Positions 20,492-25,824 of a DNA stretch of 64,000 nt are shown in pieces; positions within the stretch are counted from its first letter, which is position 1, and each line of letters starts with the position of its first letter. The translations under genes and the position numbers were made by a program. A model generated the notes under the pieces. The model saw nothing but the letters and a program-made list of their open reading frames with translations. It had not been told where the DNA came from and did no database searches. Location of the stretch: NCBI RefSeq assembly GCF_000807775.2, contig NZ_CP047385.1:2976001-3040000 (forward strand), written 5' to 3'. Source of the DNA: Pandoraea fibrosis (lineage in GTDB: Bacteria > Pseudomonadota > Gammaproteobacteria > Burkholderiales > Burkholderiaceae).

Positions 20492-22789
20492 ATGAACCAA
20501 CATCAAGCACCGACATCCGCAGGCACTCATTCGACAACGGCGCCCGGTGCTACGAATTCGGCGGCGGGCGGCAGTGAGCCGCCATTGCCCGCTACGCTGA
20601 GCGACGCCCTGGCGTTTGCCGAGAAGCTGTGCGCGGCGCATGTGCTCTCGTCCGGTGAGCCGATCATGGCGCATGCGCGAGGCATGCTTGCCATTCTCGA
20701 CACGCTGCGCGTGGACGAGGCCACCCATCAGGCCGCAGCGCTGTTCTCGGCGGCCGAGTTCCTGCCGGACGCACAAGCCACGCTGACTCAGACCTTCGGT
20801 GCCGAAGTGGCCGCGCTCGTCATTGACGTGCGCAAGTTGCAAAGGCTCTCCGGGGCGGGCTCGCGCGCTGCGCAGGCCATGCCTTCCGACGGTCGCGATC
20901 GCGACGCCTCGGCCGAGCGCAAGTCGCAGGTCGAAGGGTTGCGCAAGATGCTGCTTGCGTTCGCGCAGGACATCCGTGTCGTGATGATCAGGCTGGCATC
21001 GCGTCTGCAATCGCTGCGCTGGTATGCGGCAGAGAAAAAGACGCCGCCCGAGGACATGCCGCACGAAGTGCTCGAGATCTACGCTCCGCTCGCGAACCGG
21101 TTGGGGATCTGGCAATTGAAGTGGGAGCTCGAAGATCTCGCGTTCCGCTTCCTTGAGCCGGTGACCTACAAGCAGATCGCGAAGTTGCTCGAAGAGAAGC
21201 GCGTCGAGCGTCAAACGTTTATCGAAGGGGCAATTCAGCGACTTCAGGACGAATTGGCGCGAGCCGGGGTGAAGGCCGAGGTTTCCGGCCGACCGAAGCA
21301 CATCTACAGCATCTGGAAGAAGATGCGCGGCAAGGCGGTCGACTTTGCCGAGCTGTACGACGTGCGGGCGTTTCGCGTCATCGTCGACGACATCAAGGAT
21401 TGCTACACGGTGCTGGGCATTGTCCACAACCTGTGGCAGCCGATTCCGAAAGAGTTCGACGACTACATCTCGCGTCCGAAGCCCAACGGTTACAAGTCGC
21501 TCCATACCGTAGTGATTGGCGACGATGGGCGGGCGTTCGAAGTGCAGATTCGCACCCACGAAATGCACCACTTTGCCGAGTACGGCATCGCTGCCCACTG
21601 GCGCTACAAGGAAGCGGGGCAGCGCGGCTACGGCGGCGCGTTTTCTGCGAGCGAGGCTTACGACGAGAAGATCGCATGGTTGCGTCAGTTGTTGGCGTGG
21701 AAGGACGACGTTGCCGACACGGTGGGCGCGGAAGGTGCCGTGCAGCCGTGGGAGCAGCTCAAGCGCGCGACCATCGACGACCACATCTACGTGCTGACGC
21801 CGCAGGCCCGCGTGATTTCGCTGCCACAAGGCTCGACGCCGGTCGACTTCGCCTATCACTTGCACTCGGAACTGGGGCACCGGTGTCGCGGCGCGCGCGT
21901 CGATGGGGCGATGGTGCCGCTCAACACGCCGTTGCAGAACGGGCAGACGGTCGAGATCGTGACCGTCAAGCAGGGGGGGCCGTCGCGCGACTGGCTCAAT
22001 TCGCAACTGGGGTATCTGCAGAGTCATCGGGCACGCCAAAAGGTGCGCCAGTGGTTCAATGCCATCGACCTTGAGGAGACGATTGCCCACGGGCGCACGC
22101 TCATCGACAAAACGTTGCAGCGCGAAGGCAAGACGTCGGTCAATCTGGAGGAACTGGCGGCTCGCCTGGGTTTCCGGACGCCGGACGATCTTTATGCGTC
22201 CATCGCCAAGGATGAGTTCAGTCTGCGGCACGTCGAGCAGGCGCTTTCGGGCAACTTGCCGGGGCCGGAGCCTCGTGACGAGGACACACTTGTCGCGAAG
22301 AAGAGCCTTGATACGAGTGTCGCTCAGGGGGCGAAGAGTGGGGTGCTGGTTGTCGGCGTCGGCGCGTTGCTCACGCAGTTGGCCAAGTGCTGCCGGCCAG
22401 CGCCACCGGACACGATCGTGGGATTCGTTACTCGGGGCAAGGGCGTTTCGATTCACCGTCAGGATTGCGCGAGTTTTCAATCCATGAAAGCGCGTTCGCC
22501 TGAGCGGGTGATTCAGACTGCCTGGTCGGCAGATGTGCTCGAAGGGCGCGGTGTGGCAGCGTATCCGGTGAATATCCAGATCGAGGCTACGGACCGTCAG
22601 GGGCTATTGCGCGATATTTCGGAAGTGTTCTCGCGGGAGAAGCTCAACGTGACCGGCGTCAGTACTCAGTCGCGCGGGGCGCAGGCATTCATGCAGTTCA
22701 CCGTGGAAGTGAGGGACGGCGGGCAATTGCAGCGTGCGCTTGCCCAACTCACCGGGGTGGCGGGCGTGGTGTCGTCGCGTCGGCGGTAA
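20492..22789 (+). CDS. relA: (p)ppGpp synthetase RelA
   Basis: A 765-residue RelA/SpoT homologue. The N-terminal HD hydrolase region (about 45-200) has lost its metal-binding HD: FSAAEF stands where the family has LHDxxE. The synthetase domain (about 265-385) includes EFDDYISRPKPNGYKSLHTV, and the EFDD form marks Mg-dependent, monofunctional RelA rather than SpoT. A TGS domain (about 429-490) and a C-terminal ACT domain (about 690-765) follow, the parts that contact the ribosome and uncharged tRNA. It makes the alarmone during amino-acid starvation. Two genes upstream are co-oriented and closely spaced. Confidence 0.96.
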   Translation: MNQHQAPTSAGTHSTTAPGATNSAAGGSEPPLPATLSDALAFAEKLCAAHVLSSGEPIMAHARGMLAILDTLRVDEATHQAAALFSAAEFLPDAQATLTQTFGAEVAALVIDVRKLQRLSGAGSRAAQAMPSDGRDRDASAERKSQVEGLRKMLLAFAQDIRVVMIRLASRLQSLRWYAAEKKTPPEDMPHEVLEIYAPLANRLGIWQLKWELEDLAFRFLEPVTYKQIAKLLEEKRVERQTFIEGAIQRLQDELARAGVKAEVSGRPKHIYSIWKKMRGKAVDFAELYDVRAFRVIVDDIKDCYTVLGIVHNLWQPIPKEFDDYISRPKPNGYKSLHTVVIGDDGRAFEVQIRTHEMHHFAEYGIAAHWRYKEAGQRGYGGAFSASEAYDEKIAWLRQLLAWKDDVADTVGAEGAVQPWEQLKRATIDDHIYVLTPQARVISLPQGSTPVDFAYHLHSELGHRCRGARVDGAMVPLNTPLQNGQTVEIVTVKQGGPSRDWLNSQLGYLQSHRARQKVRQWFNAIDLEETIAHGRTLIDKTLQREGKTSVNLEELAARLGFRTPDDLYASIAKDEFSLRHVEQALSGNLPGPEPRDEDTLVAKKSLDTSVAQGAKSGVLVVGVGALLTQLAKCCRPAPPDTIVGFVTRGKGVSIHRQDCASFQSMKARSPERVIQTAWSADVLEGRGVAAYPVNIQIEATDRQGLLRDISEVFSREKLNVTGVSTQSRGAQAFMQFTVEVRDGGQLQRALAQLTGVAGVVSSRRR

Positions 22790-22985
22790 GCGGTTGTCTG
22801 AGGAGGGGGGCGGCTGGCGGGTGCTGGTGGTTTCAGCGGTATCAGCGAGTTGCGTGGAATCGGTGGCTGACCGATGTCAGGTTGGCTAACCAAAATTGGG
22901 CAACGTACTGACGTAAAGCCGTGTGAGGGAATACGCGCAAACGCCTTGTTTAATGCGGTTTTTCGTCGGCAGGCACAATAATCGC

Positions 22986-23014
22986 TTGGCGACTCGCTGA
23001 AACCTTGCTAGAAT
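22986..23014 (+). promoter_or_regulatory. Sigma-70 promoter for tRNA-Val
   Basis: TTGGCG at 22986-22991 and TAGAAT at 23009-23014, separated by exactly 17 bp. The -10 box ends 16 bp before the mature 5' end of the tRNA. This is a good match for a stable-RNA promoter, and may also supply transcripts that read into the thrS leader. Confidence 0.75.
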
Positions 23015-23030
23015 CTCGTTCTCTTGCAGT

Positions 23031-23107
23031 AGGCTCGTAGCTCAGCTGGTTAGAGCACCACCTTGACATGGTGGGGGTCGTTGGTTCGAGTCCAATCGAG
23101 CCTACCA
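23031..23107 (+). tRNA. tRNA-Val (anticodon GAC)
   Basis: A full cloverleaf: acceptor stem AGGCTCG paired with CGAGCCT, D-arm GCTC-AGCTGGTTA-GAGC, anticodon stem CCACC/GGTGG around TTGACAT, variable loop, T-arm GTTGG-TTCGAGT-CCAAT, and an encoded ACCA end (23104-23107). Anticodon GAC reads valine GUC/GUU codons. Confidence 0.97.
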
Positions 23108-23168
23108 ACGAATTTGATGCATTACAGTCCGCGAGACCCCGCAGACACAGGCGCTGGAAAAAACACTC

Positions 23169-23216
23169 ATGTTCATGATCGCCCGAACTTTCACAGTGGT
23201 GAAGGTGCGACGTTAA
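23169..23216 (+). CDS. Candidate thrS leader peptide (15 codons)
   Basis: A short reading frame encoding MFMIARTFTVVKVRR, ending in TAA at 23214-23216. It has two threonine codons close together (codons 7 and 9). Its stop codon directly abuts GTCGAGG (23217-23223), which is complementary to CCTCGAC in the 5' arm of the downstream terminator. The arrangement is that of a ribosome-mediated attenuator for thrS. No strong ribosome-binding site precedes the first ATG (GGAAAAAAC only), and an internal ATG at codon 3 is possible. I infer translation; I have not seen it described. Confidence 0.5.
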   Translation: MFMIARTFTVVKVRR

Positions 23217-23288
23217 GTCGAGGGTGTTTTTCGTCTGGATGTAAGGAATGAAGAGACGGCCTCGACAACAGTCGAGGCCGTTTTTTTT
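23217..23288 (+). terminator. Intrinsic terminator / probable attenuator ahead of thrS
   Basis: Perfect 10-bp stem: 23257-23266 with 23271-23280, loop AACA, followed by eight T residues (23281-23288), 57 bp before the thrS start. GTCGAGG at 23217-23223 can pair with CCTCGAC at 23260-23266, inside the 5' arm, giving an alternative antiterminator hairpin that excludes the terminator. Only 57 bp lie between the T run and thrS and I see no promoter there, so thrS probably depends on read-through of this site. Confidence 0.8.
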
Positions 23289-23345
23289 CGTGGTTTGCCG
23301 CGTGGCATTGGCCGCGCGTGACGTTTTTGCGCATGGGAGTGCGAC

Positions 23346-25253
23346 ATGATTTCGGTACGTTTGCCTGATGGTTCGCAACGCCAGTACGAAGCCCCGCTGA
23401 CGGTGGCGCAAGTCGCCGGTTCGATCGGTGCGGGTCTGGCCAAGGCTGCCCTGGCGGGCCGCGTTGACGGCAAGCTCGTCGATACGTCTTATCTGATCGA
23501 GCACGACGTGAGTCTTGCCATCGTGACGGACAAGGACGCCGACGGCCTGGACATCATCCGTCACTCGACGGCCCACTTGCTGGCCTACGCCGTCAAGGAG
23601 CTGTTCCCTGAGGCGCAAGTGACGATCGGCCCGGTGATCGAGAACGGCTTTTACTACGATTTCTCGTTCCATCGCGCTTTCACGCCGGAAGATCTCGCCG
23701 CCATTGAGAACAAGATGCACGAGCTGGCCAAGAAGGACGAGCCCGTGACGCGCGAGGTGCTTTCGCGCGACGACGCCGTGCGCCTGTTCATGTCGATGGG
23801 CGAAAAGTACAAGGCGGAGATTATCAAGTCGATCCCGGCAACGGATGAAATCGGTCTGTACCGCGAAGGCAAATTCGTGGATCTCTGCCGTGGCCCGCAC
23901 GTGCCCTCTACGGGCAAGCTCAAGGTCTTCAAGCTGATGAAGGTCGCTGGCGCCTATTGGCGCGGCGACGCCAAGAACGAGCAACTTCAGCGCATCTACG
24001 GCACGGCCTGGACGAAGAAGGAAGATCAGGACGCGTACCTGCACATGCTCGAAGAGGCGGAAAAGCGTGATCACCGCAAGCTCGGTCGCGCGCTGGACTT
24101 CTTCCATATGCAGGAAGAGGCGCCGGGCCTCGTCTTCTGGCACCCGAAGGGCTGGACGCTCTGGCAGCAGGTCGAGCAGTACATGCGCCGCGTCTATCGC
24201 AACAACGGTTACCAGGAAGTGAAGGGGCCCCAGATTCTCGACCGTTCGCTGTGGGAGAAGTCGGGCCACTGGGATAACTACAAGGACAACATGTTCACGA
24301 CGGAATCGGAGAACCGGGCGTACGCGCTCAAGCCGATGAACTGTCCGGGGCATGTCTTGATTTACAACTCGTCGCTGCATAGCTACCGCGATCTGCCGCT
24401 TCGCTACGGCGAATTCGGCCAATGCCACCGTAATGAGCCGTCGGGTGGCTTGCACGGCCTGATGCGCGTGCGAGGCTTCACGCAAGATGATGGCCACATC
24501 TTCTGTACGGAAGACCAGATTCTCGACGAATGCGTGAACTACACGGCCCTGCTGCACGCTGTGTACAAGGATTTTGGCTTCACGGACATGATCTACAAGG
24601 TTGCAACGCGTCCTGAGCACCGTGTCGGGTCGAACGAGAATTGGGATAAGGCCGAATTTGCGCTGATGGAGTCGCTGCGCCGTTCGAATTGCGAATTCGT
24701 CATTGCCGAGGGCGATGGCGCGTTTTATGGCCCGAAGATCGAATACACGCTCAAGGATGCGCTCGGCCGCCAGTGGCAGTGCGGCACGATGCAGGTCGAC
24801 TTCTCGATGCCGGAGCGCCTGAACGCCGAATACGTGACGGAGGAAAATGGCCGCAAGCGCCCGGTCATGCTTCACCGTGCGATTTTGGGTTCGCTTGAGC
24901 GTTTCATCGGCATTTTGATCGAGCACCATGCTGGTGCAATGCCGGTCTGGCTCGCGCCGGAGCAGGTAATTGTGATGAATGTCGCCGAAAAAACGGCCGA
25001 TTACGCTCAAGAAGTGACGAAAAAGTTGAAAGAACAAGGGCTTAGGGTCCGGGGCGATTTGCGCAACGAGAAAATTAGCTATAAAATACGCGAGCACTCG
25101 CTGCAGAAAGTTCCCTATCTCGTTGTAGTGGGGGACAAGGAGCAGGAGGCGAATACGGTAGCCGTGCGTGCCCGTGGCGGCGTGGATCTGGGTGTGATGC
25201 CCGTTGACGCGCTCATCGAACGTCTTGCGCAGGAATGCGCAACGTTCCAATAA
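23346..25253 (+). CDS. thrS: Threonyl-tRNA synthetase
   Basis: A 635-residue class II synthetase with all ThrRS parts in order: TGS domain (1-62), editing domain with [11 protein letters not shown] (about 76-86) and [12 protein letters not shown] (near 182), the catalytic core with motif 2 ([26 protein letters not shown]) and motif 3, including the zinc-binding Cys in MNCPGH, and a C-terminal anticodon-binding domain (about 540-630). Start [15 protein letters not shown] with ribosome-binding site GGGAG. First gene of the thrS-infC-rpmI-rplT block and apparently under a leader attenuator. Confidence 0.98.
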
Positions 25254-25305: not shown

Positions 25306-25824
25306 ATCGCTACCGATAAGTCGCATCGCATTAACGGCGAAATTACAGCGCCTGAAGTGCGTCTAAATGGCGTCGACAATGAGCCACTCGGCATTGTGAA
25401 ACTGGCAGAGGCTTTCCGTCTGTCCGAAGAGGCTGATGTCGATCTGGTGGAAATTGCACCGACCGCGAATCCGCCGGTTTGCCGTTTGATGGATTACGGC
25501 AAATTCAAGTACTCGGAACAGAAGAAGGCGCACGAGAACAAGCTGAAGCAGAAGGTTGTTCAGATCAAGGAAGTCAAATTCCGACCTGGCACCGACGATG
25601 GCGACTACAACGTCAAGTTGCGCAATCTGAAGCGGTTCCTCGAAGACGGTGACAAGACCAAGATCACGCTGCGTTTCCGCGGTCGTGAGATGGCCCACCA
25701 GGAAATCGGCGCTCGTATGCTGGAACGTCTGAAGTCCGATCTCGAAGAGTTCGGCCAGCCGGAACAGATGCCGAAGATGGAAGGCCGTCAGATGATCATG
25801 GTCATCGCGCCCAAGAAGAAGTAA
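25306..25824 (+). CDS. infC: Translation initiation factor IF-3 (non-canonical ATC start)
   Basis: A 172-residue IF-3. The family N-terminus ([22 protein letters not shown]) begins at an ATC codon at 25306, preceded by GAGGA eight bases away. No ATG, GTG or TTG exists at the family-correct position; the next in-frame GTG (25357) would remove 17 conserved residues. IF-3 discriminates against non-AUG starts, so a rare ATC start is the expected autoregulatory device, like the AUU start of E. coli infC. The N- and C-domains ([19 protein letters not shown] linker) are intact. It follows thrS by 52 bp. Confidence 0.93.

Follow-up and report, generated by a model that had tools for sequence, protein, structure and literature searches.

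What is the spacer between tRNA-Val(GAC) and thrS in Pandoraea fibrosis for? In the 64,000-nucleotide stretch of DNA analyzed here (the window, whose coordinates are used throughout and refer to the plus strand unless noted), the order is a relA/spoT-like gene, tRNA-Val(GAC) (23031 to 23107), a spacer of 238 nucleotides, thrS, infC, rplT, pheS, and pheT, the protein gene names being ones that we assume from family knowledge and, for thrS, also from synteny. The putative regulated gene is thrS (23346 to 25253), an open reading frame that starts at ATG 23346 and would encode a threonyl-tRNA synthetase (ThrRS) of 635 amino acids. Further along, infC (25306 to 25824) seems to start at ATC, upstream of the first standard start codon in its frame; a nonstandard start is known for E. 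coli infC.

The original prediction placed a threonine attenuator in this spacer, and sequence comparison and computed folds lead us to regard it as very probably a ribosome-mediated transcription attenuator of thrS that senses charged tRNA-Thr. Ribosome-mediated attenuation is a classical mechanism. In the version that we infer here, RNA polymerase would transcribe the leader and a ribosome would translate a 15-codon peptide. With charged tRNA-Thr at hand, the ribosome would reach the stop codon at 23214 and cover the sequence GTCGAGG, allowing the hairpin at 23256 to 23281 to form and ending transcription before thrS. When tRNA-Thr is uncharged, the ribosome would wait at the seventh or ninth codon, GTCGAGG would stay free to capture the emerging 5' arm of the hairpin, and transcription would read through into thrS, perhaps from infC onwards as well.

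A short reading frame and a predicted terminator upstream of thrS

The peptide frame of the leader, MFMIARTFTVVKVRR (23169 to 23216), reads ATG TTC ATG ATC GCC CGA ACT TTC ACA GTG GTG AAG GTG CGA CGT TAA, with the TAA stop at 23214 to 23216, and the predicted 15 codons with threonine at codons 7 (23187 to 23189) and 9 (23193 to 23195) can be read directly from it. These 2 threonines in 15 codons lie within CGA ACT TTC ACA (23184 to 23195), which comprises a conserved Arg-Thr pair and the two candidate threonine sensor codons. Upstream of the start codon is a weak GGA Shine-Dalgarno-like motif (23156 to 23158), and a second ATG at 23175 (MIARTFT...) aligns with the starts of MTARTFTEVKARR and MTPRTT... 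in relatives. A longer overlapping frame (23117 to 23251, 44 amino acids), originally offered as an alternative, was rejected, as from the homologous ATG it is intact in only 2 of 30 loci of the genus.

Directly 3' of the stop codon lies GTCGAGG (23217 to 23223; segment 2), the candidate 5' strand of the antiterminator, and its predicted complementarity to CCTCGAC (23260 to 23266) within the 5' arm of the terminator (segment 3, 23256 to 23266) was confirmed. The predicted intrinsic terminator (23256 to 23288) has a stem at 23256 to 23281 with a 4-nucleotide loop, a computed energy of -21.5 kcal/mol, and a T run at 23281 to 23288, 57 bp from the thrS ATG; the stem, T run, and spacing were found as described earlier, except that the stem is 11 bp, one pair longer. 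A simple terminator scan reported the hairpin on the minus strand only and not on the plus strand, which may be because 23250 to 23255 can pair into the T run. A second terminator-like hairpin, with a weaker T tail, lies between the T run and thrS (23299 to 23318). Folding also predicts a protector helix, in which segment 1 (23159 to 23171), which also spans the interval from the Shine-Dalgarno-like motif to the start codon, pairs with 23219 to 23231, masking part of segment 2 when the complete leader is untranslated.

As for where the transcript starts, the sole sigma70-like match in 22700 to 23700 is TTGGCG-17-TAGAAT (22986 to 23014), upstream of tRNA-Val. It is a consensus match only, at 9 of 12 positions, and possibly marks the start of a tRNA-Val/thrS leader transcript.

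Conservation of the leader in Pandoraea

The spacer is 96% identical to that of a Pandoraea anapnoica record, and the query leader was matched in 32 of 32 genomes of the genus. Thirty genus loci were compared in detail (L001 to L030), and in every one the frame is open from ATG to stop and Arg-Thr-Phe-Thr is retained. The peptide is MLKTARTFTVVKVRR in 20 of them, MFMIARTFTVVKVRR in six (window included), MFMTARTFTVVKVRR and MTTRTFTAVKGRR in one each, and MTARTFTEVKARR in two; an additional genome (G030, locus L288) has MTARTFTEVKARR too. In four genus loci the stop region is one base short, and TAG replaces TAA in frame. Among the 27 close loci, 21 have threonine at codon 4, written ACC, ACT, or ACG, so most congeners have three threonine codons and the window two; codon 4 is ATC in the window's group, whose peptide has thus lost one threonine. 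In G017, a 1.2-Mb genome of the same genus, the query matches only at the tRNA and thrS ends, and the leader may have been lost or replaced in this reduced genome.

Codon usage of this kind bears on an alternative in which the leader is bound by ThrRS, in the manner of the thrS operator of E. coli, and the peptide frame is a relic or of secondary importance. In E. coli, ThrRS represses translation of its own mRNA, a classic example of such feedback. The leader is also more structured than expected by chance, with a fold 4.1 standard deviations below dinucleotide shuffles and 0 of 200 shuffles equally stable, and self-regulation by the E. coli enzyme is described in the portion of PMC2965389 available to us. 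However, threonine is kept while its codons vary synonymously, which RNA binding by a protein would not require, and the distance from the T run to thrS places the hairpin for transcriptional control rather than control at the ribosome-binding site. We consider direct binding by ThrRS very unlikely and favor attenuation.

Threonine codons before thrS across Burkholderiales

The wider survey, a comparison of this spacer across the order as the original prediction had called for, covered 80 named loci located through ThrRS as well as 148 loci drawn from 148 genomes in 50 families. Upstream of thrS, the succession of peptide, antiterminator arm, and terminator is found again, and peptides at the same position in relatives include MTPRTTTT..., MFKRTTTTRTSR, MSFRTTTTGTLNQG, MTPRTTTTPTKV, MTPRTTTTTPTRV, MFRTSTTTQS, and MAVRTTTTHP. 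A terminator was found within 260 nucleotides of thrS in 102 of the 148 sampled loci and none in the other 46. Reading frames of 7 to 26 codons, clear of tRNA genes and ending 8 to 95 nucleotides before the terminator, contained at least three threonines in five codons in 28 of the 102 terminator leaders and at least four in 14; when each of the remaining 19 amino acids was tested in the same way, the maximum was 4 loci (leucine) for at least three and 0 for at least four. An earlier count over 149 loci gave 41 that reach three in five and 17 that reach four, compared with 4.8% plus 0.1% and 0.13% in shuffles. A looser criterion of two threonines in five codons takes in 53 of the 102 loci, which belong to 22 of the 39 families having a terminator, and some of these 53 will be chance; two of them (L137 and L199) were scored on a frame before a more distal terminator and not on their MTPRTTSEM leader. 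In Cupriavidus-like loci (L134 and L323 to L326), the peptide stops earlier (e.g., MTTRTTTAG) and the threonine run is retained.

By the same criterion, 49 of the 102 terminator leaders lack a qualifying threonine peptide, and four such leaders (L115, L136, L127, and L187) belong to families whose other members have one. A broken peptide beside a persisting terminator had been named in advance as evidence against attenuation; it does not occur in the 30 loci compared in the window's genus, where every frame is intact, and is partly realized outside the genus by these peptide-less leaders. Threonine attenuation of thrS is supported by the anatomy and its conservation, by order-wide threonine specificity, and by co-varying arms; the terminator loci without a peptide and the 46 loci with no terminator found count against it. 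Outside the order, among 29 loci that were the best ThrRS matches from 57 other genomes, 15 had a terminator, and a three-in-five threonine leader was found in 0 of these 15 from other gammaproteobacterial orders.

The same survey addresses a simpler explanation, that the hairpin is just the terminator of tRNA-Val, with thrS transcribed from a separate downstream promoter and the short frame present by chance. The hairpin is indeed a good terminator, and tRNA-Val adjoins the leader in the window and in 40 of the 53 positives. Yet in the other 13 (e.g., L047, L050, and L085), peptide and terminator precede thrS with no tRNA-Val found upstream, which argues that the terminator is not merely that of the tRNA, and the threonine specificity of the frame across the order speaks against chance. 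The original prediction had also listed a thrS promoter downstream of the T run as a finding that would weigh against it; no sigma70-like promoter was found in 23100 to 23400, a weak test. We consider a plain tRNA terminator unlikely. Upstream of some thrS leaders (L035, L039, L043, and L049), tRNA-Val(GAC) is present as two or three tandem genes.

A sequence-only model built from 28 MTPR-type leaders (R1) gave 50 matches in 49 of 120 family genomes, and all 30 of the matches that were followed to their locus sit 162 to 306 nucleotides upstream of thrS. The model found no match in the window or in most of the window's genus, so the case for homology of the Pandoraea leader is built on its position, on alignment, and on four intermediates (L028, L029, L030, and L032). 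Judged by these comparisons, the window's genus carries a pared-down version of the Burkholderiales threonine peptide.

Co-variation of the pairing arms

Compensatory changes between 23217 to 23223 and 23260 to 23266 had been proposed as decisive. In Burkholderiaceae, the 7-bp helix occurs at 114 pattern-matched loci in five forms: GTCGAGG/CCTCGAC (31 loci), GTCGAGG/CCTTGGC (31 loci), GTCGAGG/CCTCGAA, in which the outer pair is lost (30 loci), GTCAAGG/CCTTGGC (17 loci), and GTCGGGG/CCTCGGC (5 loci). In the form found at 17 loci, both partners have changed, from G-C to A-U, with a G-U intermediate in a neighboring genus. This double change appears to reflect a single event within one genus, and the 7-bp helix by itself is therefore only suggestive; the stronger argument is an order-wide comparison of each leader's own arms with permuted ones. 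Elsewhere in the order, the letters of the helix are wholly different, as in GTTCGCGC/GCGCGGAC and CTGAGCC/GGCTCAG.

For that comparison, six of 110 candidates (L067, L103, L153, L161, L207, and L212) were dropped for tRNA run-through or implausibility, though L212 contains RTPTRTTTW and may be real, and the remaining 104 were thinned to 78 representatives. Candidates had been picked by a threonine or Arg-Thr criterion with a small bonus for CGAAC, and for this reason threonine enrichment is argued only from the counts over 148 and 149 loci. The duplex of segments 2 and 3 averaged -13.30 kcal/mol for own pairs and -11.44 kcal/mol (standard deviation, 0.24) for permuted pairs. No permutation matched the energy of the own pairs, in 100,000 overall or in 20,000 within terminator classes, in a test that ignores kinship among species. 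Taken singly, 24 of the 78 loci beat 95% of segment 2 shuffles and 54 were matched by more than 5% of them. At the level of sequence, then, the arms co-evolve, with better predicted pairing within species than across them.

Such leaders could instead serve a different end, with the terminated leader acting elsewhere as a small RNA and the peptide incidental or additional. In Burkholderia cenocepacia, terminated leaders accumulate as short transcripts, according to the part of PMC5688073 available to us. Against a role in trans stand the constant linkage to thrS in all R1 matches followed and the freedom with which segments 2 and 3 change letters while complementarity is kept, which fits a switch in cis. 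We judge a small RNA of this kind very improbable next to cis attenuation.

Predicted folds and ribosome position

Attenuation further predicts that antiterminator and terminator exclude one another according to where the ribosome stands, and the computed folds behave in this way. With a ribosome assumed to mask 12 nucleotides, counted from the start of the A-site codon, upstream pairing of segment 3 was greater by more than 2 bp with the ribosome at the first threonine codon than at the stop in 45 of the 78 representatives and smaller by more than 2 bp in 1. A ribosome at the stop necessarily leaves less RNA available for pairing, and shuffles were used to control for this. Pairing of segment 3 rose by 3.24 bp from stop to stall, compared with 0.89 bp (standard deviation, 0.32) in shuffles, and by 2.98 bp from no ribosome to stall, compared with -0.65 bp (standard deviation, 0.26); over the 78 representatives, the predicted effect of the protector, in which segment 1 pairs with segment 2, is seen.

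In the window, the antiterminator is computed at -22.6 kcal/mol for a ribosome waiting at either Thr7 or Thr9 and at -5.6 kcal/mol for one at the stop. Once the hairpin is complete, the terminator fold (-31.8 kcal/mol) is ahead of the forced antiterminator (-27.9 kcal/mol) by 3.9 kcal/mol, so the switch would have to be kinetic. With no ribosome, the antiterminator is predicted to be preferred until the 3' arm is made, and segment 3 has 12.0 bp paired, compared with 12.9 bp when the ribosome is stalled. Because the antiterminator would form even in an untranslated leader, the protector step appears weak in the window.

Comparison with known regulators

The element resembles the E. coli thrL leader of thrABC in having threonine codons in a short frame, an intrinsic terminator, alternative hairpins, and proposed stalling at threonine. 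In contrast to the leader described here, thrL controls threonine biosynthesis and senses both threonine and isoleucine, and the thrS leader differs from it in gene, lineage, and its shorter peptide. The peptide of thrL (Rfam Thr_leader) has a long mixed run of threonine and isoleucine codons. A search of the locus against Rfam matched no leader family, and only the tRNA reached the gathering score; low-score matches were judged to be chance, the best being HPnc0260, on the minus strand and overlapping the tRNA, at 44.7 bits against a cutoff of 59.

In the pheM/pheST attenuator of E. coli, too, a synthetase operon is controlled through a leader peptide with many residues of its cognate amino acid, in that case phenylalanine. 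That system places phenylalanine codons before pheS, whereas the element here has threonine codons before thrS; in the window, pheST lies 3' of thrS-infC. The thrS gene of E. coli has a translational operator, in which ThrRS binds tRNA-like hairpins and blocks ribosomes. The outcome for the same gene, more ThrRS when it is needed, would be shared with the leader proposed here, but the operator needs no peptide or terminator. The accessible part of PMC2965389 covers hisS leader peptides and T-boxes in Firmicutes. The hisS leaders likewise join a synthetase gene to a leader peptide of its cognate amino acid, but the amino acid is histidine and the hosts are bacilli. T-boxes read tRNA directly and need no ribosome, unlike the proposed leader, and Rfam gave no T-box at the locus, either at the gathering score or among the low-score matches.

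In the literature that we searched, we found no report of a thrS leader peptide in Burkholderiales, though the list of 65 attenuated gene families in PMC2965389 or Table S3 of PMC5688073 may include thrS. The part of PMC5688073 available to us gives 82 short 5' untranslated regions in B. cenocepacia and names two tRNA-synthetase loci by tag. The available section of PMC4603805 mentions neither threonyl nor attenuation, and a term search within the accessible text of PMC7563307 gave no match on the subject. The best reading of these comparisons is that an established mechanism acts on a gene, and in an order, for which we found no earlier report, and that it is probably present in many Burkholderiales families. 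If this is true, a whole order counts threonine codons where E. coli ThrRS represses translation, which would be a clean case of one gene under unrelated sensors, and many unannotated short frames before thrS could be named. The attenuator would also be a compact one, with arms reinvented many times over, and so of use in studying how ribosome and polymerase keep pace.

The CGA-ACT dicodon

The Arg-Thr pair is almost always written CGA-ACT, despite the existence of synonymous codons. Among 68 representatives, 65 encode its arginine as CGA, compared with 20 of 81 arginines elsewhere in the same leaders, and its threonine is ACT in 60 of 68, compared with 37 of 209, counts that are slightly biased by the CGAAC bonus in the choice of candidates. 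The dicodon is explained only in part by base pairing between CGAAC and the region of the stop codon: a partner (GTTCG or AGTCG, 3' of the stop) was present in 35 of 66 leaders, compared with 11.9 (standard deviation, 3.1) in shuffles, and no single pairing of segments 1 and 2 was found that explains CGAAC everywhere. CGA is read by an inosine-containing tRNA. One tentative, rather doubtful idea is that a slowly decoded CGA in CGA-ACT parks the leading ribosome ahead of the threonine codons and synchronizes it there with RNA polymerase, which would make the switch kinetic by design.
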